A stretch of DNA of 64,000 nt. It comes from Acidaminococcus intestini DSM 21505 (lineage in GTDB: Bacteria; Bacillota; Negativicutes; Acidaminococcales; Acidaminococcaceae). The notes under the pieces were generated by a model. It saw only the letters and a program-made list of their open reading frames with translations. It was not told the origin of the DNA and did no database searches. Below, piece after piece: positions 19,475-58,121 of this stretch (the first letter of the stretch is position 1; each line of letters opens with the position of its first letter). The DNA lies in the NCBI RefSeq assembly GCF_000425045.1, contig NZ_AULA01000002.1:1-64000 (forward strand), read 5' to 3'. Made by a program: the position numbers and the translations under genes.

Positions 19475-22168
19475 TTATTTTGCCATGAGCTGGGCCACTA
19501 TGGCTTCCAGCTTGGCGATTTTTTCATTTTGCGCTTTCATGGCTTTATCCTGACTTGCCACAAGCGTCTGGAGGTTTGTAATGGTCTTTTGGAGATTTCC
19601 CTTTGTCACGGAGGATTCCTTGCCAAGCTTGAAGCTTGCACCCAGACCAACCATGTTTTCGCCGTTGCCAAAGGTACCGCTGATGTTTACCATACTCTTT
19701 TCATCGGGGCGATAAAAGGCACCGACAGCCAGGGCATTGGCATTGCGATAGTTCCCAAAGCCAGTGGAGAAACTCCACTTGTCGTCAGGATCAAAATCAA
19801 GGGGATGAAGGTTTGCCAAGGCCGCTGCACCGGCACCGACACGATTGATTTTCGTATCAAGGCGGCTGATGCGTCCATTCATGCCTTGCTGGACGCTCCA
19901 CAGCTGGCCGCCGTTCACGGCATCCTTGGAGCCTTCATAGACATCCCCGTCGGCGATATTGGTGATCTTCGTATTGTTCATGTCGATGCCGCCCTCGTTG
20001 ATGGTCGGGCCGCCGTTATTGATGGTGATGCTGCTTACGCTAAGGTCCTTGCTGAGGGCAACCTTCACATCACTGCCACTGACGCTGGTCTTGATGTTTT
20101 CGCCGTCGCCCTTGATGCCAAGCTGATTGTCATTATTGTCCCCAAGGCTTGTCGTATTGCCGTCATCGGCCGTAAGTTTCGTTTCGATGACAGCCGCCTT
20201 GCCTGTGTCCGAAGTCGTGCCACTGTCCGTGTTGGTCGTATCCCCCGTGTTCGTCGCATCCTTATACGTCACTTCATCCGAGCCAGAGTTCTCGAAGTTC
20301 GTGCTGATTGTCCAGGAGCCGTCGGTACCCTTGACGAGCTTGATGCCGTCGCCGGCAATGAGGTTTGCCGAACCGCCGGCGCTGCCTGCCACCTGTTTCA
20401 GCTGGGCCACGTTGACCGCATCCGTATCATTGATGCCGGCAGCGACATTCGTAATGCGGCGCGTATCCGTGCCGCTGACACCAACAGACACAGCAGCTAG
20501 GGTCGGACGCCAAATGTAGCTTGTGTCGGTGGAGTTTGTCTTCGTCGCCGGATTATACCCGGACTGATCCAATCCCGATTCCGAGTCATTCAAAATGGAT
20601 CCGGCACCCAGAGCCACGCCGCCTTCAGCCTGTACGTTCGCATTGTAGCCAAGGATGGTGGCCTTCGAAGCGGTCAGTTCCATTTCGCTTTCGGCAGAGC
20701 CGAGAATCACGGAGTTCTTAACATTTGTCAATTTCCGGTTGTCGCCTATAAGCTGGACCGTACTCGAATCACTGATTGTATTCTTGTACCCGATGGACGT
20801 CACATGATCAACATTTTTTGCCGTCACATCAAACCCATTGATCATGTTGAATTCACTTACATCGCTCTGTGTACCAGTAAGCGTGGTATTGACGCCAATC
20901 ATCATCGAATGCTTTGCGTAATCTGCCGTGTTGCCGCCGCCAATGGCAAGAACCGCTCCACCAGCATCGCTATTTTTTACCGCAGTGGCAAGTTTATCCA
21001 ACAGGTCGTCTGCCGAATCAGCGCCAGTATTTCCACTAAAGTTGATGTAACTATTGGAATTCGTAATCTTGTTTCCCGCCCCGTAAATGAGTGCCCCATT
21101 CGCGTTTTCTGCAATGTTGGCAACGCCGACCATCGTATTGGCAATGCCACTATAGCCGCCATTTCCCTTGGAACGGTTCTGGTTCAAGGACCCAATGAGG
21201 ACGGACCCCATGTTCTGCGAACCGTAAGAAAGGCTATTAAACCCACCGCTGCCATCAAAGTCTCCGGTATTGATGGAATAGGCACCGACGATGGTCGCCA
21301 TCATACCTTTGTTGTATGAGTTCGTACCGATGGTCGTCATGTCAATGATATTCGCCGATGTCTTATCAACAGTCGTTCCAGCCATAGTCATCCCCTGCAT
21401 AGTATGACTGCCGATTTCCACAGAACCCGTACGGGCATAGGCATTGGTGCCGATTGCAATGCCGCCGGGAAGTCGATCTAGTGCATCCGTTCCCTCTTTG
21501 GGATCATACTTGTAACTAAAAAAACCACTACTCGTCTTTATCCAAGAATCCTTGTTAAAGCTGAATTCGTATTCCTGCTGTCCCGTTCCGTTGAGGACGT
21601 AGGCATTTCGACCGATAGCGATACTGGTTAGGGAATATCCATTGGATTTTACCTGGGCATAATCACCAATCGCTATAGAGGATTTTCCATCGGCGAACGA
21701 ACTTCTGCCCAACGCCACGGTTCCCTCTGAATTAGCCGTTGAACTAGCACCCAGCGAAACACTGCCGATTCCTATGGCTCGGGACAACGCACCAAAAGCG
21801 GCAGCGTTTTCTGCCGTTGCATTTGCGCCATTTCCCACAGCCAAGGCACTTGAAGCACTTGCTTTCGCTTGGTAGCCTTCTGCTACCGAATTAACCCCAG
21901 ATGCAGTGGCACCGTTTCCTTCTGCTACCGAATTAGCCCCGGACGCAGCGGCACCGTTGCCAATCGCCGTACTTCCCTTTCCCGTCGCTTTCGCAGTTTT
22001 TCCAACTGCTGTATCCGTAGCATCCGTTGCTTGTGAATTGGTTCCTTGGGCAACTCCATTTCCGGTACCGGTCGCCGTGTCAGCGGCATAAGCCGTACCA
22101 GCAAAAACCATGGCAAGCACGGCAGCGGCGAGCGTTCCCTTGGTTAAAAGGTTCTTGTGTTGTTTCAT
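19475..22168 (-). CDS. YadA-like trimeric autotransporter adhesin
   Basis: An 897-residue surface protein. Residues 1-28 are a signal peptide ending GTAYA-AD. Next comes a YadA-like head built of about 14-residue repeats (SVAEG, AVG, ALG, IAIG positions) to about residue 400, then stalk and neck regions including VAAGINDTDAVNVAQL, and a YadA anchor domain (about 765-850) with GGQLWSVQQGMNGRISRLDTKI and a final FGNGENMVGLGASFKLG barrel strand. Anchor domains normally end the protein; here about 43 more residues follow with a heptad-like coiled coil (LVASQDKAMKAQNEKIAKLEAIVAQ). I chose the ATG at 22168, 8 bases after GAGGAG. Its presence implies an outer membrane. Confidence 0.9.
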   Translation of the reverse strand: MKQHKNLLTKGTLAAAVLAMVFAGTAYAADTATGTGNGVAQGTNSQATDATDTAVGKTAKATGKGSTAIGNGAAASGANSVAEGNGATASGVNSVAEGYQAKASASSALAVGNGANATAENAAAFGALSRAIGIGSVSLGASSTANSEGTVALGRSSFADGKSSIAIGDYAQVKSNGYSLTSIAIGRNAYVLNGTGQQEYEFSFNKDSWIKTSSGFFSYKYDPKEGTDALDRLPGGIAIGTNAYARTGSVEIGSHTMQGMTMAGTTVDKTSANIIDMTTIGTNSYNKGMMATIVGAYSINTGDFDGSGGFNSLSYGSQNMGSVLIGSLNQNRSKGNGGYSGIANTMVGVANIAENANGALIYGAGNKITNSNSYINFSGNTGADSADDLLDKLATAVKNSDAGGAVLAIGGGNTADYAKHSMMIGVNTTLTGTQSDVSEFNMINGFDVTAKNVDHVTSIGYKNTISDSSTVQLIGDNRKLTNVKNSVILGSAESEMELTASKATILGYNANVQAEGGVALGAGSILNDSESGLDQSGYNPATKTNSTDTSYIWRPTLAAVSVGVSGTDTRRITNVAAGINDTDAVNVAQLKQVAGSAGGSANLIAGDGIKLVKGTDGSWTISTNFENSGSDEVTYKDATNTGDTTNTDSGTTSDTGKAAVIETKLTADDGNTTSLGDNNDNQLGIKGDGENIKTSVSGSDVKVALSKDLSVSSITINNGGPTINEGGIDMNNTKITNIADGDVYEGSKDAVNGGQLWSVQQGMNGRISRLDTKINRVGAGAAALANLHPLDFDPDDKWSFSTGFGNYRNANALAVGAFYRPDEKSMVNISGTFGNGENMVGLGASFKLGKESSVTKGNLQKTITNLQTLVASQDKAMKAQNEKIAKLEAIVAQLMAK
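21876..21959 (-). repeat. 42-bp tandem duplication in the adhesin head
   Basis: Two copies (21876-21917 and 21918-21959) of a 42-bp unit, differing at about four to five positions, encode two 14-residue head repeats (NSVAEGxxAxAS-type). Such units can expand or contract. Confidence 0.75.
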
Positions 22169-22701
22169 TGTCATGACTCCTCTCACTGAAAAATGGCCCT
22201 TTTGTTGGTCCCATCGGCAGAAATACAAACCGCTTCACGATTTACAGCACAAAAGACCGTATGGATGATAGTCCCTGGATTATTTGGTCCTGAAATTCCA
22301 TTCATATGGCCGTGGTGATAAAAGGTAAGTATGGGTAACCCTTTTCCCCAGTGCTTCATGGTAAAGCCCTTCCCCCATCCGGAGTATGTTTTTTATACCG
22401 CTCTCCAAAGCGGCATTCTCACGAACAAGCCATTGTTTTTTATTGATAATTTTAAATGGCTATCGGTTCTTTTTCTCAAAAAAGGCCTTTATTTAATTGA
22501 TAGTATATATTAACTTTATGATTTTGTAAATATTACGGATAATTTTAGATTAATCACGGTTAAATTTTATTTTAAATTATATTTATATTTTATATTATAT
22601 TAGTTTGTTTATCGCTATTTATTTAATCTTTTGCGATATTTAATATCACATTTCAGCAAAAAGTTATTCTTAGCTAAAAAAGTTAAGCTGCCTGCGATTC
22701 A
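22169..22701. other. AT-rich intergenic region
   Basis: About 530 bases upstream of the adhesin, strongly AT-rich between about 22480 and 22690. I see no gene, hairpin or clear promoter for the adhesin in it; the patB promoter follows directly. Confidence 0.6.
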
Positions 22702-24372: not shown

Positions 24373-24419
24373 AAAAAGGCCGCACAGAAATGATTCCATC
24401 ATTTCTGTGCGGCCTTTTT
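24373..24419. terminator. Strong bidirectional terminator
   Basis: A 21-bp perfect stem (24373-24393 with 24399-24419) around TTCCA, with A-run on the left and T-run on the right. It lies 9 bases past the stop of the exported-protein gene on the minus strand. Confidence 0.85.
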
Positions 24420-24428
24420 CTTTTTCTC

Positions 24429-24863
24429 TTACAGCTTAAAATCGATAACAGCGGAGACGCCGACGCCTTCGACGCGATTCACGTTTGTAATATTGATGTT
24501 GTCAATGGGGATGAGGCCTTTGATACGGGCAATCTTACTGAATTTAAATTCAAGCTGGCCCACGGCTTTTACCTTATCCACTTGGGCTTTTGGCCCCACG
24601 ACCTGGACAGCACCGATGTAGCCGCCCGTCCCCATACTGAGGATGGGCACGACCTTTGTTGCATAGTCCGTACTGACTTCATTTTGGGAAAAAATCTTGT
24701 TGATGAAGGTATTGATTTCTCCGCCAAACTGATTGACGAGGTAGCTGATACCGCCGAGTTTCAGAACGGATCCAAAATCAAAAGCCTGAGCCGTCATCAC
24801 CCCACCGCCAAAGCCAAAAAGGGATGCGGCAAGAACACCTGCAATAAATTGTTTCTTGATCAT
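24429..24863 (-). CDS. Small exported protein of unknown function
   Basis: A 144-residue protein with a signal peptide (about 1-27, ending TAQA-FDFG). The mature part is rich in Gly, Val and Ile, with LGGISYLVNQFGGEINTFIN, YATKVVPILSMGTGGYIGAVQVVGP and a final VEGVGVSAVIDFKL. I believe similar secreted proteins occur in other Negativicutes but cannot name a domain. The start at 24863 has AGGAGG just upstream. It is a single-gene unit between two hairpins, and its product would lie in the periplasm or on the surface. Confidence 0.7.
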   Translation of the reverse strand: MIKKQFIAGVLAASLFGFGGGVMTAQAFDFGSVLKLGGISYLVNQFGGEINTFINKIFSQNEVSTDYATKVVPILSMGTGGYIGAVQVVGPKAQVDKVKAVGQLEFKFSKIARIKGLIPIDNINITNVNRVEGVGVSAVIDFKL

Positions 24864-24962
24864 TTTTGTCCTCCTACTTCCTGGCAGATATGTTTTCTCT
24901 ATTGTACCCAAAAGATTTGGACAATTTGTGACAAAAAGAAAACTGCAGGGAGGGATGATCCC

Positions 24963-25448
24963 TTACAGTTCTTTTTTGAAATAGACGGTCACATGCTTTT
25001 TCCCAGCAAGCTGTTTTTCTCCCACTTCCGTAAAGCCAAGGTGCCGGTACATCGCCGCAAGCCAAGGATGACTCTTGGCCGTACCAAGGGTCACGGCGGG
25101 TGCATGAAGCAGCTTGGTCAAGATTTCTATTTCTACATAATGAAGGAGTTTAGTGGCGTTTCCTTGATGCGCCTCATCGGGATCCGTAATGAAGTGTCCA
25201 ATATGGGGCACACCAAAGGGGCCAGGATGGTGCCCCCAAGGCATCCGCAGGGAAATGGCACTCACGAGCTTATGGTCCACAAAAAGACCAAAGGTCGGCT
25301 CTTCCTGGAGCCATTGTATGGCCTCTTCCCGCGTTTCATCCATGGCGTCAAAAGAAAGTGGATATGGCCGGTCAGTTGCGTAGCTTCGATGGAGGACGTC
25401 AAAATAAGCATCTCCATCGTCTTTAGTCAAGAGGCGGTATTCAACCAC
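24963..25448 (-). CDS. GNAT-family N-acetyltransferase
   Basis: A 161-residue acetyltransferase with the GNAT fold: N-terminal YRLLTKDDGDAYFDVL, a central beta-strand region with GHFITDPDEAHQGNATKLLHYV in place of the usual acetyl-CoA loop, and MYRHLGFTEVGEK near the C-terminus. It is the last gene of the seven-gene operon and overlaps the ABC ATPase gene by 22 bases. In the B. subtilis yxe operon a GNAT (YxeL) N-acetylates S-(2-succino)cysteine; this gene is in the matching context, so a cysteine-conjugate N-acetyltransferase is a reasonable guess. Confidence 0.82.
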   Translation of the reverse strand: MVEYRLLTKDDGDAYFDVLHRSYATDRPYPLSFDAMDETREEAIQWLQEEPTFGLFVDHKLVSAISLRMPWGHHPGPFGVPHIGHFITDPDEAHQGNATKLLHYVEIEILTKLLHAPAVTLGTAKSHPWLAAMYRHLGFTEVGEKQLAGKKHVTVYFKKEL

Positions 25449-26236
25449 AAGGCAGCCTCCTTTTTGGGGTCCATTTCATCGCAGGAAAGGCATTGCGGAG
25501 CCAGGAACCGGCTAAGGAACTGACGGGTCCTTTTCTCCTTCGGATGGACGAGGACTTCCTGGGCACTCCCCCGCTCCACAATATAGCCATTTTCCATAAA
25601 GACAACTTGATCGGCCACTTCCCTGGCAAAGGCAATCTCGTGAGTCACAATAATCATGGTAATCTTTAATTTTGAGGCAATCTCTCGGATCACAGACAAC
25701 ACTTCTCCCACGATTTCAGGGTCCAGGGCGCTCGTTGGTTCATCAAACAAGATGACCTTAGGATTCATGGCAAGGGCCCGGGCAATGCCAACGCGCTGCT
25801 GCTGACCGCCTGAAAGCTGGATGGGATAGGCATTCAGATATTCTGCCATGCCGACCTGCTGCAGGCAGGCAATGGCTTTTTCACGGGCTTCCTTTTTGGC
25901 CATTTTCTGGACCGTCACAAGCCCTTCCATCACATTTTGAAGAACGGTCATATTGGAAAAAAGATTGTAAAGCTGAAAAACCATGGCCGTATTGCGGCGG
26001 ACATGAAGGATTTCCTTTTTGCTGGCGCGTTTCATATCAATGATGGGTTCCTCATCAAGCTGAAGCGTCCCTTTATCAGCGGGTCCCAAAAAATTAATGG
26101 TTCTCAAAAAGGTCGTTTTCCCACTCCCAGAAGGGCCTATGATGACTGTCACACTGCCCGTTGGCACCTCAAGGCTGACATCTTTTAGGACCGGGCGTTT
26201 CCCATAGCTTTTTTCAACGTGCTCAATGCGGATCAT
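25427..26236 (-). CDS. Amino-acid ABC transporter ATP-binding protein
   Basis: A 269-residue polar-amino-acid-type ATPase: Walker A GPSGSGKTTF (about 34-43), Q-loop VFQLYNLFSNM, signature LSGGQQQRV (about 142-150), Walker B VILFDEPTSALDP, and the H-loop VTHE. It drives the two permeases that follow upstream in the operon. It starts inside the end of the permease gene (ATGA-type overlap of four bases). By family and context it is closest to cystine or cysteine-derivative importers (TcyN/YxeO type). Confidence 0.93.
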   Translation of the reverse strand: MIRIEHVEKSYGKRPVLKDVSLEVPTGSVTVIIGPSGSGKTTFLRTINFLGPADKGTLQLDEEPIIDMKRASKKEILHVRRNTAMVFQLYNLFSNMTVLQNVMEGLVTVQKMAKKEAREKAIACLQQVGMAEYLNAYPIQLSGGQQQRVGIARALAMNPKVILFDEPTSALDPEIVGEVLSVIREIASKLKITMIIVTHEIAFAREVADQVVFMENGYIVERGSAQEVLVHPKEKRTRQFLSRFLAPQCLSCDEMDPKKEAALWLNTAS

Positions 26237-26955
26237 GCTAGATTCCCCTTTCTAAACCGATTGCTTCTAACTTCCATCTTCCCAAAAATAAATTCAAATC
26301 CGACGCCCATAAGCCAATAAAGGATTGCTACTGCCATATAGGCTTCAAAGTAGCGCATACTGTCTTCGCTGAACAATTTGGCTGCACCAAAAAGCTCAAC
26401 TACGGTAATGACAAAGACGATACTTGTACTTTTCATAGTCGAAAGAAACTGATTGGCAAACATGGGCAGGGCCACCGTTACTGCTTGAGGGAAGATGACC
26501 CGAAAAAAAGCCTGAAGTCCTGTCATTCCAATGGATTTGGCGGCTTCTTTCTGACCTTCCGGTACTGCTTCATAGGCAGCTCGAAAAATCTCCGTTAAAT
26601 ACGCCCCGGTATGGAGGGTGAGCCCCACGACAGCTACTTGGAGGGCTGTTACTTTTTCCACGGGAAAATGAAATACGCCTTCTTGGTCCATGGCCATAAC
26701 AAAAATGGGCAGTCCATAATAGACAAGATAGAGCAGGACCATATTCGGCAAGCTACGGCAGATGAGGACATAAAGGGCGGCCAGTTCCTTAAAAAGAGGG
26801 ACTCTGCGGATTTCAAGAAAAGCGCAGAAAAGGGCCCAGAAAGTGCCTAGACAAACACTGCTGACAGTCAGTCCCAAAGTCACCTTGAGATAGGGAAAAA
26901 TGTAGACGAGGCCTGAGACAATATAGGATGGATCAAAAAAAGCTGTACTATTCAT
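26233..26955 (-). CDS. Amino-acid ABC transporter permease (1)
   Basis: A 240-residue HisM-type membrane protein with about five membrane segments and the binding-protein-dependent transport signature around GAYLTEIFRAAYEAVPEGQKEAA, which forms the coupling loop to the ATPase. It overlaps the next permease by eight bases. Two different permeases in tandem imply a heterodimeric pore, as in YxeN/TcyLM-type systems that sometimes have one or two permeases. Confidence 0.92.
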   Translation of the reverse strand: MNSTAFFDPSYIVSGLVYIFPYLKVTLGLTVSSVCLGTFWALFCAFLEIRRVPLFKELAALYVLICRSLPNMVLLYLVYYGLPIFVMAMDQEGVFHFPVEKVTALQVAVVGLTLHTGAYLTEIFRAAYEAVPEGQKEAAKSIGMTGLQAFFRVIFPQAVTVALPMFANQFLSTMKSTSIVFVITVVELFGAAKLFSEDSMRYFEAYMAVAILYWLMGVGFEFIFGKMEVRSNRFRKGNLA

Positions 26956-27637
26956 ATTCTCCTCCTATCACGGTCAAGGTGTCTTCTGAAATCCGAAAAT
27001 GATGTTCAAGGGCCCGTCCCAATAAGGTAAGGGCAAAGATCATCGCCCCATAAAGGATGGCGACATCCACGTATAGTTCCAGATACCGCTGGGAATTTCC
27101 GCCCATGAGTTCAGCTTGGCGCATAACATCAACAATGCCTACATTAAAGATCAAGGCCGTGCCTTTAAGGGTGCTGATGACCTCATTCACAAGAGGCGGG
27201 ATGGAAAGCACAAAAGCCTGAGGAAGGACGATGCGCCGATAAATCTGGGCATCGGTCATTCCTAAACTGGCAGCGGCCTCTTTTTCTCCCGGCTGGATGG
27301 CCGCTAAGCTCCCACGCAGGATTTCCGCCCCATAGCCAGCAACGTGGAGTGCAAAGATCACCAAAACAAAGAGCAAGGGCGGCAGGTCCGACACATCCAC
27401 GCCTGCACCTGAAAGAAGCTGGGGAACACCAAAATAGACAACAAAGAGTTGGACGATAAAGGGAGTACTGCGGATAAAGGAAATAAAGATTCGATAGCCC
27501 CCACTTACTATGCGCGATCCCTGATCCTTCCATACGGCCAGAAGGGCTGCCAAAATAAGTCCTGGGACAACGGATAGGAGCGTCACAAAGAGCGTTACGG
27601 AAAGGTAGCCGGCCAGTTTGGGCAGCGAGGCAAGCAT
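26948..27637 (-). CDS. Amino-acid ABC transporter permease (2)
   Basis: A 229-residue membrane protein of the same family, with about five segments and the EAA-type loop GYGAEILRGSLAAIQPGEKEAA. Together with the other permease, ATPase and binding protein it forms an importer for a polar amino acid or derivative. A 54-base gap separates it from the binding-protein gene. Confidence 0.92.
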   Translation of the reverse strand: MLASLPKLAGYLSVTLFVTLLSVVPGLILAALLAVWKDQGSRIVSGGYRIFISFIRSTPFIVQLFVVYFGVPQLLSGAGVDVSDLPPLLFVLVIFALHVAGYGAEILRGSLAAIQPGEKEAAASLGMTDAQIYRRIVLPQAFVLSIPPLVNEVISTLKGTALIFNVGIVDVMRQAELMGGNSQRYLELYVDVAILYGAMIFALTLLGRALEHHFRISEDTLTVIGGEYE

Positions 27638-27691
27638 ATAGGCTGAACTGAAATAACTTCCTATTTTTGTTTCACTCCTTTCCTTGGTTCT

Positions 27692-28525
27692 TTATTTTGG
27701 CTGGACGGTGTAGTCCTTGCCAAGGTACTGTTCGGAGAGCTTTTTCAAGGTTCCGTCTGCCTGCATTTCTTTTAGCACCTTATCAATCTTTTGGATGACG
27801 GATTCAAACTTAGGATCCTTACGGAACATGAAATAGGTCGGAACAGACTGGAAGACGGGGCCAACAGAAACAACAGGGAGATTCTTGTCCTTTCGGGCCG
27901 CAGCCACGACATATTCATATTCTCCTGCGGCATCTGCCCGTCCTGTTGCAACAAGATTCAGGTTTTCCGCAGATCCCTTATCACTGTAAATGGCCTCAAT
28001 GGCATTGCCATTTTTCTTATTGAGATCGTTGATGAGATCGCGGAACTCAGAATTTGCCGTAAGGGCAACCTTCTTTCCCTTGAGGTCGTCGAGACTCTTG
28101 ATGTCCGTACAGCCTTCTTTGACAACAAGTTTCCGAGCCGTGTAGTTATTGGGCACATTCGTATAAAGGTACTTTCCTTCGCGAGCCGGATTGCGCCGCA
28201 TTTGGTTGGCGATGGCATCAACTTGTTTGGAGTTCATGGCAACAATGGCAGCATCGACGGCCATTGCCTTGAATTCAAAATGCAGACTCGGATCACGGCG
28301 TTCCACTTCCTTAAGGATTTCCACATCATAACCGGTGAGGTTTCCCTTATCGTCCGTATAGGTGAACGGTTTCGCCGTTCCACGGGTGGCCACCACAATC
28401 TTTTGAGCCTCTTTATGGGGGACATTCCCTTCTTTTTTATCATTTCCGCAGCCGGCCAAGGCAACGACAGCAGCGACAACGGTCAAAACAGCCGTCCATT
28501 TTTTCACGCGGTTTATCTTCATCAT
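27692..28525 (-). CDS. Amino-acid ABC transporter substrate-binding lipoprotein
   Basis: A 277-residue periplasmic/lipid-anchored solute-binding protein. It begins with a basic n-region and a hydrophobic stretch to the lipobox LAGC (Cys at about 26), then the bacterial SBP_bac_3 fold: IVVATRGTAKPFTYTDDKGNLTGYDVEI, two lobes with SLDDLKGKKVAL and a C-terminal DGTLKKLSEQYLG. The start lies after GGGGAGGA; ATGs at 28525 and 28522 are both possible. It overlaps the end of the MmgE/PrpD gene by four bases. Confidence 0.92.
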   Translation of the reverse strand: MMKINRVKKWTAVLTVVAAVVALAGCGNDKKEGNVPHKEAQKIVVATRGTAKPFTYTDDKGNLTGYDVEILKEVERRDPSLHFEFKAMAVDAAIVAMNSKQVDAIANQMRRNPAREGKYLYTNVPNNYTARKLVVKEGCTDIKSLDDLKGKKVALTANSEFRDLINDLNKKNGNAIEAIYSDKGSAENLNLVATGRADAAGEYEYVVAAARKDKNLPVVSVGPVFQSVPTYFMFRKDPKFESVIQKIDKVLKEMQADGTLKKLSEQYLGKDYTVQPK

Positions 28526-29865
28526 ACTTCCTCCCCTGATTCTACACTTAGGAGCGGCCAAAGTGACTCCATGGTCCCCTTGGGCCAATTCCTCGTTTGT
28601 TCCATAACTTTTCCGGCCCAGTTTTCATCCTTCGAAAGGGCCAATTTTTCAAATAGGTCTTCCTCTGTAAAGGGTCGATTGGGCGACCCTGGCGGTGCGG
28701 ATTCCTCTGCCGTGATGACCTTTCCCGATCTTGTCTGGACTGTTACAACAATCCTGCGCACACTTTTGGGGACACGCGGCAAATCACGGCTCCGCTGCAT
28801 TCTGGGTAAGGCTTTTGTAAAGCTTTCCGGGACCTTTTCCAGATCAAAGAATCGGTCTTCTACGCACCCTTGGGTCAGAACCTGATAAGCGACGTATTCC
28901 ATGGAAAACTTCCCTTCCACTCCTGTTAGAGGCGCCTCATAGCGAAGGGCTTTATCTGCGCCAGGCGGAAAATGAAAAACAATTTTTTGAAGGTCATCGA
29001 GCCGAATACCCTGCTGCCATAGCTTCTTACAAGCAGCTTCCCCACCAATGGCGGCACTGCAGTAAGGATGGGTCTTCATCCATAACCCGGGATCGAGGAT
29101 CTGCCCTTTATTGAGCCAGTTAGACTCAAAAAATTCAGCACTACCCGTTGGTGCTGAAAAGGTTTTCAGCCATCCCGTTTGGGAATTGAAGGGTGTTTCC
29201 CTAGCGGACAGCCCGACAGCGGTTACAAGGTCAAAGGCAAAGACCGCGTTTCTTGCAGCAAAGCCTGAATGAAGGGGTTTTCCATCACTGCCGGCCTGCA
29301 TCCCCAGACCGCCGGACTGACTGCCGCAGAGGGATAAGAGCTGCGCCGTTTTAGACTCGTCAAGTTGGGCCCATTTAGCTAGGGCGCAGGCGCCGCCCAA
29401 AGGGCCCAAGGTTCCTGTGGAATGCCACCCCTGCCATTTATGTTCGGGATTGACAAGACTTCCCAATAGGCCTTCCAATTCAGCGCCCACAACATAGGCG
29501 GTCAAGAAGTCTTTGACTGACTGCCGCGACGCCATAACAGAAAGGAGGACGGAAAAAAGAACGGTACTGAAATGACCGGCAATATTTGATTGGGCATCAT
29601 CAAGGTCAAGATAATGGGAAGCAAACCCGTTATAAAAGGCAGCAAAAATGGGGTAGCTGGTTCCCTTCTGTCCCACCATAAGACCCTTACCGGCAAACCC
29701 CTGGGCCCAGTGTGCCGCCGCCTTGACTTTCTGCCTCCCTACCGCCCGATAAAGGGAAGCGAGGTAGTCCAAGAACGCTCTTCTTGCTTCCAGCAAAAGA
29801 TCGTCCCGATGGGTCAGATCTGTTTCCTTGATGAGCCGGACAATGGTTCCCGTAATGTCATCCAT
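28522..29865 (-). CDS. MmgE/PrpD family protein (YxeQ-like context)
   Basis: A 447-residue MmgE/PrpD-family protein (relatives include 2-methylcitrate dehydratase and cis-aconitate decarboxylase). Seen: the N-terminal helical domain with FYNGFASHYLDLDDAQ near residue 85, the HWTGTLG-like HSTGTLGPLGGA, GLGMQAGSDGKPLHSGFAARN and a smaller C-terminal lid domain. An MmgE/PrpD gene (yxeQ) is also part of the B. subtilis yxe operon, where its exact step is unclear. I took the ATG at 29865, with AGGGG 8 bases upstream. A dehydratase acting on a dicarboxylic side product (for example malate/fumarate-like) is possible. Confidence 0.8.
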   Translation of the reverse strand: MDDITGTIVRLIKETDLTHRDDLLLEARRAFLDYLASLYRAVGRQKVKAAAHWAQGFAGKGLMVGQKGTSYPIFAAFYNGFASHYLDLDDAQSNIAGHFSTVLFSVLLSVMASRQSVKDFLTAYVVGAELEGLLGSLVNPEHKWQGWHSTGTLGPLGGACALAKWAQLDESKTAQLLSLCGSQSGGLGMQAGSDGKPLHSGFAARNAVFAFDLVTAVGLSARETPFNSQTGWLKTFSAPTGSAEFFESNWLNKGQILDPGLWMKTHPYCSAAIGGEAACKKLWQQGIRLDDLQKIVFHFPPGADKALRYEAPLTGVEGKFSMEYVAYQVLTQGCVEDRFFDLEKVPESFTKALPRMQRSRDLPRVPKSVRRIVVTVQTRSGKVITAEESAPPGSPNRPFTEEDLFEKLALSKDENWAGKVMEQTRNWPKGTMESLWPLLSVESGEEV

Positions 29866-29885
29866 GGTTTCCACCCCTGCCGCTT

Positions 29886-30983
29886 TTATTTAGCGAATTT
29901 TGCCGCCCGGTCATTAGGCTCTTCCCAAATTGACATATCCGGGCCTTTAGGCACAATGCGCGGAAAATCTTCAAAAGGCGTGTGATCTACATAATAAAAA
30001 CGCTTGCGCATGGAGTCAAAATCCGTATTCTTTCCAAAGGCCGGATGGGAATAAAGATCCTTTGCATAATTCCAAAGATTGGGATAATCCACGAGCCGTT
30101 TTTTGTTCACATAATATTTTTGATAGAACACAAGATCGAAACGGGCAAGGGTCACATAAAGCCGAATATCCGGATCGGTGATGGTATCGCCAAATAGGTA
30201 GCGCCGTGAACTAAGACGTTTTTCCAGCCAGTCCAGACGGTCAAAGACTTTATTGTAGTAGAATTCATAATCCTTCTGGCTGGTAACAAGGGCTGCCAGG
30301 TTGACTGCAAGATTGACGTCAGCATAGATGATGTCATTGAGGGCATCAATATCATCATGCAGGGCTTCTGGATAAAGATCCGGTGCGTCAGGACGGAAGT
30401 ATTTTTTCCAGGCCGTTTCCAGCTCCGTCGTAAGGTCGTGGTAGTCATTATTGACAACAGCGCCCGTTGTGACATCAACAATGGCAGGAACGGTGCTGCG
30501 CTGATCATAATGAGGATTGCCTTTTCGATAGCATTCCCCCAGGGAATGAACCTTCAAAACAGGGTCAACGCCGTCGGGATCAAGGGTGAAGAACCAATCA
30601 CCAACAACACCGGCAGGACGCAGGGGATCGACAACCCCCTTGGAAATCACTTGATCAAGACCTAACAGATCGATGGCAATGGCAATCCTATGAGCCCACG
30701 GACAATGGCGGGACCAAATGAGACGATACCGTCCCGCTTCCACAGGAAGGAAACCCGGTCCTTCACCAAAGGGCGTCGTAAACTGCGGTTCCTCGTCGTC
30801 AGCATATTTTTGGCGACGATTGAAGTTGGAATGGTCCTGTCCATCATATTCCTTTTGAACCGTATGGGCCCGGGGATTACTGGAATGAAACTCGGAAAAA
30901 TCAATGGGGCATGGGTTCATGGCTTTTTTTACCGTAACCTTTTTCCATTCTGCTGCGATTTCAGGATCTTTTGCAAAACTCAT
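29886..30983 (-). CDS. Glutathionyl-hydroquinone reductase family protein (GST, YqjG/ECM4-like)
   Basis: A 365-residue GST-superfamily protein of the xi class. The N-terminal thioredoxin-like domain contains the catalytic-type SRHCPWAHR (Cys at about residue 92) and the substrate-side STVPAIVD; the all-helical C-terminal domain has RLDWLEKRLSSRRYLFGDTITDPDIRLYVTL. Known members use glutathione to take the thiol off glutathionyl-hydroquinones by reductive C-S cleavage. Strict anaerobes seldom make glutathione, so the thiol partner here may differ. It is the first gene of a seven-gene operon with MmgE/PrpD, an amino-acid importer and GNAT, and has a near-consensus promoter. The following gene starts 20 bases later. 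Confidence 0.85.
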   Translation of the reverse strand: MSFAKDPEIAAEWKKVTVKKAMNPCPIDFSEFHSSNPRAHTVQKEYDGQDHSNFNRRQKYADDEEPQFTTPFGEGPGFLPVEAGRYRLIWSRHCPWAHRIAIAIDLLGLDQVISKGVVDPLRPAGVVGDWFFTLDPDGVDPVLKVHSLGECYRKGNPHYDQRSTVPAIVDVTTGAVVNNDYHDLTTELETAWKKYFRPDAPDLYPEALHDDIDALNDIIYADVNLAVNLAALVTSQKDYEFYYNKVFDRLDWLEKRLSSRRYLFGDTITDPDIRLYVTLARFDLVFYQKYYVNKKRLVDYPNLWNYAKDLYSHPAFGKNTDFDSMRKRFYYVDHTPFEDFPRIVPKGPDMSIWEEPNDRAAKFAK

Positions 30984-31037: not shown

Positions 31038-31065
31038 ATCATAGCACTTTAGTCTAATTTGTCAA
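31038..31065 (-). promoter_or_regulatory. Promoter of the seven-gene import operon
   Basis: On the minus strand: -35 TTGACA (31060-31065), 16-base spacer, -10 TATGAT (31038-31043). It lies about 55 bases upstream of the GST-like gene. The upstream stretch to 31110 is AT-rich with a short palindrome TTATTAATAA. Confidence 0.75.
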
Positions 31066-32424: not shown

Positions 32425-33213
32425 TCAGAGAATGCTTAGTTCTGAGTTAAGAAGGTCGGTGACGAACATGTGACCAGGAGCATGCGTAATCATAAACTCA
32501 GGTTTTACGGCCATGGCGACGGCTTGAGGCGTTACGCCGCAGGCCCAGAATACAGGAATTTCCCCAGGACCAATGGTGCTTGGTTCCCCAAAATCAGGAT
32601 GATTGATGTCCTTGATCCCGATGGCGGCAGGGTCCCCCATATGAATGGGAGCGCCATGGACGTTGGGCATACGGCTTGTGACCTGGACGGCACGGATGGC
32701 GTCCTTCATCTTCATAGGGCGCATAGAAACAACAGTTGGTCCATGGAAGACGCCGGCGGGGATGCATTCGCGGTTCGTAATATACATGGGAACGTTGTGC
32801 CCTTCCGTGATGTGGCGTACTTCAAGGCCCGCGTCAAGGAGCGGTCCTTCAAAGGAAAAGCTGCAGCCGAGAAGAAAGGCGACAAGGTCATCACGCCAAT
32901 ATTGTTCAAGGGTGGCCACTTCTTCTGCCATCTCGCCGTGACGATAGATGCGGTATTTGGGAATGTCATAGCGCAGGTCGGCACCGGGCGCGGCAAGGCG
33001 CGGCTCGGGGTTTCCCACTTCCGTTACATCAAGGATGGGGCAAGGTTTGGGATTGCGTGTTGCAAAAAGGAGAAAATCAAAGGCCAGGTCCTTGGGCAAA
33101 ATGACGAGGTTTGCTTGAGCGTAGCCATTGCAAACGCCAGAAGTCTGACCTGTAAAGCGGCCGGAACGAACAAGCTCACGAAAAGCGGTCGGTTTCATGG
33201 TACTGCAGTCCAT
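32425..33213 (-). CDS. Putative hydro-lyase (DUF1445 family)
   Basis: A 262-residue member of the DUF1445/UPF0317 family, annotated as putative hydro-lyases and related to D-glutamate cyclase. Seen: the opening FRELVRSGRFTGQTSGVCNGYAQANL, PKYRIYRHG, the central FLLGCSFSFEGPLLDAG, NVPMYITNREC and the late CGVTPQAVAM. I chose the ATG at 33213, 7 bases after AAGGAGG; the upstream ATG at 33219 almost touches that site. It stands between the small ORF and the LOG gene. Confidence 0.85.
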   Translation of the reverse strand: MDCSTMKPTAFRELVRSGRFTGQTSGVCNGYAQANLVILPKDLAFDFLLFATRNPKPCPILDVTEVGNPEPRLAAPGADLRYDIPKYRIYRHGEMAEEVATLEQYWRDDLVAFLLGCSFSFEGPLLDAGLEVRHITEGHNVPMYITNRECIPAGVFHGPTVVSMRPMKMKDAIRAVQVTSRMPNVHGAPIHMGDPAAIGIKDINHPDFGEPSTIGPGEIPVFWACGVTPQAVAMAVKPEFMITHAPGHMFVTDLLNSELSIL

Positions 33214-33312
33214 TGTCATGCCTCCTTTTGCCGTCTAAGCGGCATCCTTGTAAAATATACTTATGCTCCTTTCACTATACCCTATCTTGATGGCTTTGTG
33301 AACTCTTTTTTC

Positions 33313-56205: not shown

Positions 56206-56946
56206 TCATACGGGCATCTTTTCTTCTTCTTCCACTTCTTTGATCCGATCCATGGCCTCTTCCTCTTCTGTTCCGCCATACCGGTCGGAAAGATGGACAA
56301 GGATCATGGCAATGACAAGAAGGGCATACCCATAAAAGGCTCCATAGACGCCTTCCCGCAGGACAGCAAATCCGGCTGCCAGGCAGCCAGCCATAAAGGA
56401 AAGGATGGTTCCTGTATAGAGAATGGCCTTGTGGAAATATTTCCAGTCCTTCGTCATGAAAAACTGGGTCCAAGCAAGTACGGACTGCTTCGTGTTATTT
56501 GAAAGAAAGATGGTCGCACTGGCATAGCCCTGGGCTTCGGAAAAAGTTCCCCATTGAAAACTAGCCGCAAAAATCATGGGATAGATGGTCATAATGGGGT
56601 CCCAAGTAAGAGGCATGAGCGCTACGAGGGTTATGGCAACGGCATTGACGCAGATGACGATTTTGCGCATATCTTTTTGGATTTTCTGGGAAAGCAGGAA
56701 AGAAACCACAACCCCAGCGGCAAACATGATGAGGGCCCCTACCCTCGTCATGACGGAGAAAAAATCACCGCCCAAAAAATCTTCCGTAATGCTCATGAGG
56801 TTTCCCGTCTGGGCATTGACAAAATTCCGGGCATGGAGCACTACGGAATACATCCCGCCAAAGCCAGCATAGCAGGCCATGAGCCAGTGGATGATTTCAT
56901 CATAATGGGTGGCAAAATAGCCGCCTGTGTTCTTATTGGGTATCAT
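56206..56946 (-). CDS. DUF1275 (YoaK) family membrane protein
   Basis: A 246-residue membrane protein with about six segments. It has the YoaK/DUF1275 features: HWLMACYAGFGGMYSVVLHARNFVNAQTGNLMS and SFQWGTFSEAQGYASATIFLSNNTKQ, ending in an acidic tail (EEEEAMDRIKEVEEEEK). The function is unknown. Its ATG overlaps the stop of the M20 gene (ATGA), so the two are coupled. Confidence 0.85.
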   Translation of the reverse strand: MIPNKNTGGYFATHYDEIIHWLMACYAGFGGMYSVVLHARNFVNAQTGNLMSITEDFLGGDFFSVMTRVGALIMFAAGVVVSFLLSQKIQKDMRKIVICVNAVAITLVALMPLTWDPIMTIYPMIFAASFQWGTFSEAQGYASATIFLSNNTKQSVLAWTQFFMTKDWKYFHKAILYTGTILSFMAGCLAAGFAVLREGVYGAFYGYALLVIAMILVHLSDRYGGTEEEEAMDRIKEVEEEEKMPV

Positions 56947-58121
56947 TGGCGTTTCGTAAGCTCCTTTTGAAAATCTTCTTTGATCCGGTCCATGAGATCC
57001 TTGCCGCAAATGAGGTCATAAGCCGTTCCTGCAAGAATCTTGGCACCATATAGGATGGCGGCATGGCCCATGTCATCCTTGCCATGATCCAAATATTCCT
57101 GGGAATGGGCTGCCGCGCCTTCCGGAACGAACTTGATGCGGGCGCAGGCGCCGGGCATGCGGTGAAGGACATTGCCAAAATCCGTGGAACCTGTCTTTTC
57201 GCGAGGCGGTGCAATCCCTGGAGCGCCGCAGGCCTTGGCATTTTCCATGATGACGGCATTGAGGGTTGGTGCAGGCAGTTTATCGTCAAAAGAAGGACGG
57301 TCAACCATAGTAACCGTTACACCAGCCATAAGGGCCGCGCCCTTTAGGATATCGCGAACGCGGCTTACAACTTCATCAAGGGCTTCCCGGGAATAAGAGC
57401 GAAGGCAGAAGGATCCGACTGCTGTATCGGGAACGATATTATTGGGACCGGGCAAGGTTTCAATGGTATAGTGCATGCGTACATCGTCAGGCACATGTTC
57501 GCGCAGATATTCGATTCCGTTAAAGGCAAGAAGCAGGGCGTCCAGTGCCGACCGCCCTTTGTGGGGTGCAATGGCCGCATGGGAGGATTTGCCATGGAAG
57601 GTGGCAAGGATCTCACTGAGGGCAAGGCTCTTGACATCGGTTTGGGTGTAAGGACCGCCATGCATCATGAGTGCGACATCAATATCCTGGAAAAGACCGG
57701 CTTCAAGCATATTGATCTTGCCGCCAAAGCTTTCTTCAGCTGGCGTTCCGTAAATGACAAGCTGGTAGGGACGGTCAGTGAGGATTTCTTTCAAGGCATG
57801 GGCCGCTCCAATCACGGCCGGTCCTTGGAGATGATGGCCGCAGCCGTGACCAAAATCCTTAAGTGCGTCATATTCGCATAATAGGCCGATAGATGGCCCG
57901 CCCTCCTCATGTTGGTACCGTGCACGAAAGGCGGTTGGAAGTCCGCCCACGCCAAGTTCCACTGCAAACCCCATTTCCTTCAAAAGGCCCGTCAGCAGCG
58001 AAGCTGCATGGACCTCCTTTCCTTCCCATTCAGGGTGGTCATAAATGTCGTCAGCCGTCGAAATGAGTACCCCCTTTTGTTCATCAATGAGGTGCCAAAG
58101 GGCTTCTTTTTGTGTATCCAA
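56943..58121 (-). CDS. M20-family amidohydrolase
   Basis: A 392-residue metallo-aminoacylase of the M20 family (HipO, AbgB and N-acyl-amino-acid deacetylase relatives). Metal-binding and active-site groups: ALKDFGHGCGHHLQGPAVIGAA, the catalytic YGTPAEESFGGK, and the dimerisation lid region SSHAAIAPHKGRSALDALLLAFN. It should free an amino acid or aryl amine from an N-acyl or gamma-amide bond. A deacetylase of this family (YxeP/SndA) completes the B. subtilis S-(2-succino)cysteine route, and I see no other M20 gene in the window. Confidence 0.88.
   Translation of the reverse strand: MDTQKEALWHLIDEQKGVLISTADDIYDHPEWEGKEVHAASLLTGLLKEMGFAVELGVGGLPTAFRARYQHEEGGPSIGLLCEYDALKDFGHGCGHHLQGPAVIGAAHALKEILTDRPYQLVIYGTPAEESFGGKINMLEAGLFQDIDVALMMHGGPYTQTDVKSLALSEILATFHGKSSHAAIAPHKGRSALDALLLAFNGIEYLREHVPDDVRMHYTIETLPGPNNIVPDTAVGSFCLRSYSREALDEVVSRVRDILKGAALMAGVTVTMVDRPSFDDKLPAPTLNAVIMENAKACGAPGIAPPREKTGSTDFGNVLHRMPGACARIKFVPEGAAAHSQEYLDHGKDDMGHAAILYGAKILAGTAYDLICGKDLMDRIKEDFQKELTKRQ

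Follow-up and report, generated by a model that had tools for sequence, protein, structure and literature searches.

Gene content of the operon

The window analyzed here, a stretch of 64,000 nucleotides from Acidaminococcus intestini DSM 21505 (NZ_AULA01000002.1, positions 1 to 64,000), harbors a minus-strand operon of seven genes, headed by a glutathione S-transferase (GST) and encoding an MmgE/PrpD-family protein, an ATP-binding cassette (ABC) importer and a GNAT acetyltransferase (Table 1). All seven genes lie at the coordinates and belong to the families given in a first reading of the DNA by a model that ran no database searches (here termed the sequence-only reading), which had also described one tight unit with one good promoter. 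The family assignments stand above chance, with E-values down to 1e-76 for the GST and 2e-61 for MmgE, and the distances between genes range from a 22-base overlap to a gap of 54 bases. The start of the binding lipoprotein had to be revised, as the listed TTG at 28588 is too early and an ATG at 28525 overlaps the stop codon of mmgE. As detailed below, comparative genomics gives good support to regarding this locus as a third version of the yxe/scm-like salvage operon, in which the breakdown enzyme appears to have been replaced by the GST.

Table 1. Features of the operon and its boundaries, in the order of transcription (positions in the window)
Feature	Position	Strand	Remarks
Promoter-like site	31038..31065	-	TTGACA-16-TATGAT; the second hexamer is preceded by TG; 11/12 matches
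Xi-class-like GST, 365 aa	29886..30983	-	Sequence, residues, tree, model and fold match
MmgE/PrpD-family protein, 450 aa	28522..29874	-	YxeQ/iminodisuccinate-epimerase branch; altered active site (A99, K146)
Family-3 solute-binding lipoprotein	27692..28525	-	Closest solved structure YtmK/TcyK; start codon picked from sequence
ABC permease A	26948..27637	-	
ABC permease B	26233..26955	-	
ABC ATPase	25427..26236	-	Best NCBIfam model L-cystine TcyN (under cut-off)
GNAT acetyltransferase, YxeL-like	24963..25448	-	Motifs (S)LRMPWGxxPGP and VTLGTAxxHPWL
Short secreted protein	24429..24911	-	No Pfam match; 52 bases downstream of the operon
Strong terminator-like hairpin closing the unit	24373..24419		20 base pairs

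Apparent replacement of the breakdown enzyme in yxe-like loci

In Bacillus subtilis, the yxe/scm operon (yxeKLMNOPQ) breaks down S-(2-succino)cysteine by means of the monooxygenase YxeK, and loci of this type have been defined by the clustering of at least three of YxeK, YxeL, YxeMNO, YxeP and YxeQ (PMC9706529). Among 102 such loci, 67 carry yxeK and 27 carry the lyase 2SL (three have both), the known oxygen-independent replacement of YxeK found, for instance, in Enterococcus italicus and Dickeya dadantii, and 11 carry neither enzyme (Hillmann et al. 2022, PMC9706529). Both published types appear to be represented in the loci compared here. One of them (L064) is a complete yxeK-type locus, with a monooxygenase of the NtaA/DmoA family, GNAT, binding protein, permease, ATPase, M20 protein and MmgE. 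A sister genus from the family of the window contributes three genomes (L037-L039) in which a lyase-class-I protein lies beside GNAT and MmgE; its best models are the 3-sulfopropionylcysteine synthase XcbD (under cut-off), adenylosuccinate lyase and carboxymuconate cycloisomerase, and at the level of these model matches it would fit the published 2SL. None of these four loci holds a GST.

The genome of the window, on the other hand, encodes neither of the two known enzymes. The sequence-only reading had inferred that the YxeK step is replaced, and yxeK is indeed missing from the whole genome, which yields no match to PF00296 (luciferase-type monooxygenases); a hidden 2SL can likewise be discarded, for the only three lyase-class-I proteins of the genome are FumC, ArgH and PurB. 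Both absences refer to this one of the 14 genomes that carry a GST-type operon. In another locus (L046) a lyase gene adjoins the operon, but a purA-like gene follows it and, as read from the sequence, it is most likely purB. The proposal that the GST takes the place of YxeK hence agrees with the genomic replacement pattern, even if its formulation in the sequence-only reading had overlooked 2SL as the known oxygen-free replacement.

The yxe-like character of the locus, also put forward in that reading, is borne out by the GNAT, which is 41-42% identical to the GNATs of the lyase and yxeK loci (42% to that of the complete yxeK-type locus) and has no significant similarity to either of two unrelated GNATs. 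The motifs LRMPWGxxPGP and LGTAxxHPWL recur in the GNATs of all three types of locus, which argues that acetylation of S-(2-succino)cysteine or of something close to it is likely to be their common first step.

Distribution and coupling in the Negativicutes

The GST subfamily (>650 bits) was detected in 14 out of 351 genomes of the class Negativicutes, distributed over five families, and the matching MmgE (E <1e-100) in exactly the same 14. The two genes are adjacent in every case and the full seven-gene order is kept in 13, the exception (G603) comprising GST and MmgE together with two binding proteins only. The sequence-only reading had suggested looking in other genomes for the GST next to this importer, and the association turns out to be strict. 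These 14 genomes belong to related lineages and do not amount to 14 independent events, yet they span five families and several genomic settings. The same order is seen in Megasphaera cerevisiae DSM 20462 (L040), the sole genome returned by a contig search with the GST alone, with identities to the window of 82% for the GST, 51% for MmgE, 59% for the binding protein, 59-61% for the permeases, 69% for the ATPase and 59% for the GNAT. The GST is the most conserved gene of the operon between genera and, in the two genomes of the window's genus, it presents the lowest nonsynonymous substitution rate (dN) and the lowest ratio of dN to the synonymous rate (dN/dS) of the operon (about 0.03 vs 0.05-0.10 for the other genes); MmgE is the fastest-changing one. 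Within that genus the operon occurs in two of nine genomes and in differing surroundings, so that the unit looks either mobile or often lost.

Rebuilt active site of the operon GSTs

The window GST falls into the xi fold group, with E-values of 1e-76 to the Gordonia structure 4pts and 1e-72 to a Corynebacterium enzyme. Its AlphaFold model (predicted local distance difference test, pLDDT, 79; predicted template modeling score, pTM, 0.82) likewise retrieves xi-class structures as top Foldseek matches. The 14 operon GSTs fall into a single tree group with full support (100/100), which also includes a long-branch Liquorilactobacillus sequence of unsure placement, and all of them keep the CPWA motif with its catalytic-type Cys94. 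The Glu-Ser pair that binds glutathione is replaced by Asp180-Tyr181, as in those actinobacterial relatives whose thiol is mycothiol, the reactive portion of which is N-acetylcysteine. An extra N-terminal extension of approximately 50 residues with an invariant Cys25 is also common to the 14 proteins.

The most distinctive feature of the subfamily is the presence of Asn228 and Phe286, in 14 of 14 sequences, at positions where its relatives have tyrosine. Every other xi sequence compared, including the nearest Negativicutes relatives outside the operon, holds tyrosine at both positions, with the sole exception of a glycine at 228 in the Liquorilactobacillus sequence; in the alignment, the third tyrosine position is offset by an inserted residue. 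In ECM4, to which the residues were matched by alignment, the tyrosines at these positions belong to the catalytic triad (PMC5063366). The description of the GST as YqjG/ECM4-like in the sequence-only reading thus holds for the xi fold and the CPWA motif, but the loss of two tyrosines and of the Glu-Ser pair sets it apart from an ordinary YqjG or ECM4. The genome of the window contains no glutamate-cysteine ligase of family PF04262 (gshA/gshF), GCS2-type ligases not having been searched for, and no BshC for bacillithiol synthesis, the search not covering mycothiol genes. Given the lost residues and the missing genes for glutathione and bacillithiol, ECM4-like chemistry cannot simply carry over to this protein. 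A literature search returned no papers on xi-class GSTs in the Negativicutes. Liquorilactobacillus plasmids encode a divergent GST of the xi type in which the tyrosine site is occupied by other residues (L072:11905-12831).

GSTs were also encountered in other clusters related to cysteine. Loci L094:2819-12644 and L096:5789-12333 hold three xi-type GSTs with the usual tyrosines, together with the binding protein, permease and ATPase of a cysteine-type importer, and L094 includes in addition a YxeP-like M20 protein (55%), two GNATs and an old-yellow-enzyme-type reductase; this is a second, different GST/cysteine-conjugate locus. In two further loci (L095 and L048) the GST adjoins a cysteine-synthase-like gene. 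The recurrence of GSTs in clusters for cysteine conjugates or cysteine supply suggests an independent link between these proteins and cysteine-conjugate salvage.

Altered active site of MmgE

The best structural match of the window MmgE, which is 33% identical to the MmgE of the yxeK-type locus, is 7bra (bsIRG1), a protein that we assume to be YxeQ, given its source and its length of 445 residues. The active-site residues of bsIRG1 have been reported to match all those of iminodisuccinate epimerase, in which His99 and Tyr145 (His102 and Tyr146 in bsIRG1) act as the two bases (PMC7347537). The base histidine (His101) is kept in the 14 GST-type MmgE proteins, all of which have Ala or Met in place of R100 and Lys or Arg in place of Y146, with two further changes close by (Pro to Phe and Tyr to His); the Arg, His and Tyr are all kept in the proteins of the 2SL- and YxeK-type loci. 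Given the chemical closeness of iminodisuccinate to S-(2-succino)cysteine, an epimerase role for YxeQ would be a natural, if unproven, guess. As two residues of the MmgE active site are changed throughout the 14 genomes, the whole breakdown step, and possibly the exact substrate, may differ from those of yxe. The joint change of the GST and MmgE active sites is the most surprising result of this analysis, and it can reflect either a new mechanism involving both proteins or a shifted substrate.

Importer and deacetylase

The nearest solved relative of the binding protein is YtmK (2o1m), of the TcyK type, and its identity to the binding protein of the yxeK-type locus is 31%. The sequence-only reading had also proposed that the M20 gene at 56943-58121 supplies the deacetylase of the pathway. 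This is a genuine M20-family gene, but it is not specially related to YxeP and is the weakest of the 11 matches that a YxeP-type query finds in the genome, so the suggestion is best abandoned; four better M20 candidates (37-39%) are encoded elsewhere in the genome.

Proposed pathway and its alternatives

We propose, judging its chances to be about even, that the operon imports and dismantles an S-conjugated cysteine, with the GST and the altered MmgE together performing the breakdown step that is carried out by YxeK or 2SL elsewhere. The binding protein and the ABC importer would take up the conjugate (S-(2-succino)cysteine or a closely related carboxyalkyl compound being the likeliest), and the YxeL-like GNAT would N-acetylate it. 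Most likely, Cys94 of the GST would then attack the sulfur of the N-acetylcysteine conjugate, giving a mixed disulfide between the protein and N-acetylcysteine and a reduced carbon fragment (succinate). As the genes searched for glutathione and bacillithiol are absent, either Cys25 with thioredoxin or a free thiol would then resolve this disulfide; a dithiol scheme based on Cys94, Cys25 and thioredoxin would need neither glutathione, bacillithiol nor mycothiol. MmgE may supply the chemistry at the alpha carbon, by adjusting the stereocenter or stabilizing a carbanion, and a housekeeping M20 deacetylase encoded elsewhere would finally free the cysteine. In its most specific form, the proposal holds that an enzyme of the GST fold works without glutathione, relying on a second cysteine of its own and on thioredoxin for resolution, and splits N-acetyl-S-(2-succino)cysteine by reduction, with N-acetylcysteine and succinate as products. 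This form must be considered unlikely; such a cleavage is plausible but chemically demanding.

Several observations weigh against this proposal. The main chemical objection is that the succinate carbanion is a poor leaving group in comparison with the quinone and ketone leaving groups of the known xi and omega enzymes. Moreover, two of the three catalytic tyrosines of glutathionyl-hydroquinone reductases (GHR) are lost in the GST of all 14 operons, and the extension bearing Cys25 is modeled at very low confidence, so that Cys25 is at most a putative neighbor of Cys94. The importer has two permeases and a binding protein whose nearest solved relative is YtmK/TcyK, the operon contains no deacetylase, and the changes in MmgE may point to a different substrate. 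These last changes and the TcyK-type importer would fit a pathway of the same design acting on another natural substrate, such as an aryl, quinone-derived or longer carboxyalkyl cysteine adduct, which would be easier for the reductive chemistry of a GST, and known xi-class enzymes do work on quinone adducts (PMC5063366). The GNAT motifs, however, are the same as in the 2SL and YxeK loci, and it is precisely the quinone-handling tyrosines, kept in its relatives, that the operon GST has lost; we regard this alternative as unlikely.

Two further explanations assign the cleavage to a protein other than the GST. The altered MmgE could be the actual C-S lyase, releasing fumarate by beta-elimination in a manner akin to the elimination of water by PrpD relatives, with the GST in an auxiliary role, removing or protecting the thiol set free. 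MmgE/PrpD proteins are established to perform eliminations and alpha-proton chemistry, and the retained His101, the substitution of R100 and Y146 in all 14 proteins and the perfect coupling of GST and MmgE are all in line with this notion. It is nonetheless made improbable by the rapid change of MmgE, the gene of which is broken into two reading frames in two genomes (G535 and G573; L089:12745-14099 and L092:12396-13735) where the GST is intact, and by the fact that YxeQ is no substitute for YxeK in B. subtilis, a yxeK deletion mutant failing to grow on S-(2-succino)cysteine (PMC9706529). Alternatively, the GST might have no more than a redox or thiol-repair function and be expressed together with a cystine-type importer, and cleavage might be left to another enzyme encoded elsewhere. 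Its corynebacterial relative is a thiol transferase, a mycoredoxin-like protein (PMC6815410), and the importer does resemble cystine systems, but a general redox role would leave unexplained the coupling to GNAT and MmgE, the replacement of 2SL and YxeK and the rebuilt active site, and hence seems very improbable.

Transcription unit and genomic surroundings

The core of the promoter-like site is kept upstream of the operon in the second genome of the genus (G005), with diverged flanks. An Rfam search of the window gave no match that would suggest control by an RNA switch, and comparison of the upstream regions across genera revealed promoter-like boxes only, with no clear shared operator motif. 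The gene for the short secreted protein lies between the operon and the terminator and may be on the same transcript, although it falls outside the conserved seven-gene unit. Upstream of the operon, positions 32425-33219 encode a protein of the D-glutamate-cyclase family (PF07286). A long repeat-rich protein resembling a trimeric autotransporter adhesin is encoded at 19475-22228.

In other genomes, the operon of G005 is intact except that a transposase-like gene on the opposite strand separates its permease genes from each other (L036:11211-12458), and a partial second copy of the GST lies in tandem in G560 (L084:360-2145). Four loci (L085, L086, L088 and L090) carry further genes immediately upstream of the operon: one for another YxeL-like GNAT (approximately 45% identical to that of the window), two for small integral membrane proteins and one resembling pyrrolidone-carboxylate peptidase genes. 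In M. cerevisiae, AhpC-like and thioredoxin-reductase-like genes precede the operon (L040:7239-9497) and could be a source of reducing power.

Significance and comparison with known systems

Cysteine damaged by succination is a stable product and a marker of disease, and the work cited here describes two enzymes that undo succination. Of the 102 published yxe loci, 11 were left without a breakdown enzyme (PMC9706529). The operon of the window names a concrete third candidate, present in five families and embodied in a testable pair of proteins. Novelty appears to lie in a third form of yxe/scm-type locus and in its GST subfamily, and the system would be categorically new only if the reaction were shown. 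The GST subfamily with a rebuilt active site thereby gains a likely physiological setting, and xi-type GSTs become linked more widely to the salvage of cysteine conjugates in bacteria, one of which lacks the glutathione genes searched for. A possible new way of breaking a C-S bond is at stake where the known versions resort to an oxygenase or a lyase; if true, the reductive split would constitute a third answer to damage by succination, irreversible and free of oxygen, and would bring a new reaction to the GST superfamily.

Compared with the yxe/scm operon of B. subtilis, the locus is alike in combining a YxeL-like GNAT, an MmgE/PrpD protein of the YxeQ branch and an amino-acid-type ABC importer in one unit, but it lacks YxeK and an M20 gene of its own, and has two permeases, a GST at its head and a changed MmgE active site. 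With the 2SL-type loci it shares the YxeL-like GNAT, the YxeQ-like protein and, if the proposal holds, an oxygen-independent replacement of YxeK, yet it contains a GST, and 2SL is absent both from the operon and from the rest of the genome. Its importer recalls the TcyKLMN-type cystine importer (YtmKLMN) in its two permeases, in a binding protein closest to the YtmK structure and in an ATPase closest to the TcyN model; all these matches nevertheless fall under the equivalog cut-offs, and the importer sits with MmgE and GST. The MmgE protein belongs to the same branch as iminodisuccinate epimerase and bsIRG1 (PDB 2hp3 and 7bra; PMC7347537) and keeps the base histidine, Lys199 and the second histidine, but departs from them, in 14 of 14 cases, in the second base (Tyr to Lys/Arg) and in the active-site arginine (to Ala/Met). 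Finally, the GST has in common with the xi-class GSTs (YqjG, ECM4, PcpF, the corynebacterial MstX and the Gordonia 4pts) the fold, the CPWA motif with its catalytic-type cysteine and the overall sequence, and differs in Asn228/Phe286, the Asp-Tyr site, the Cys25 extension and the strict coupling to its operon.

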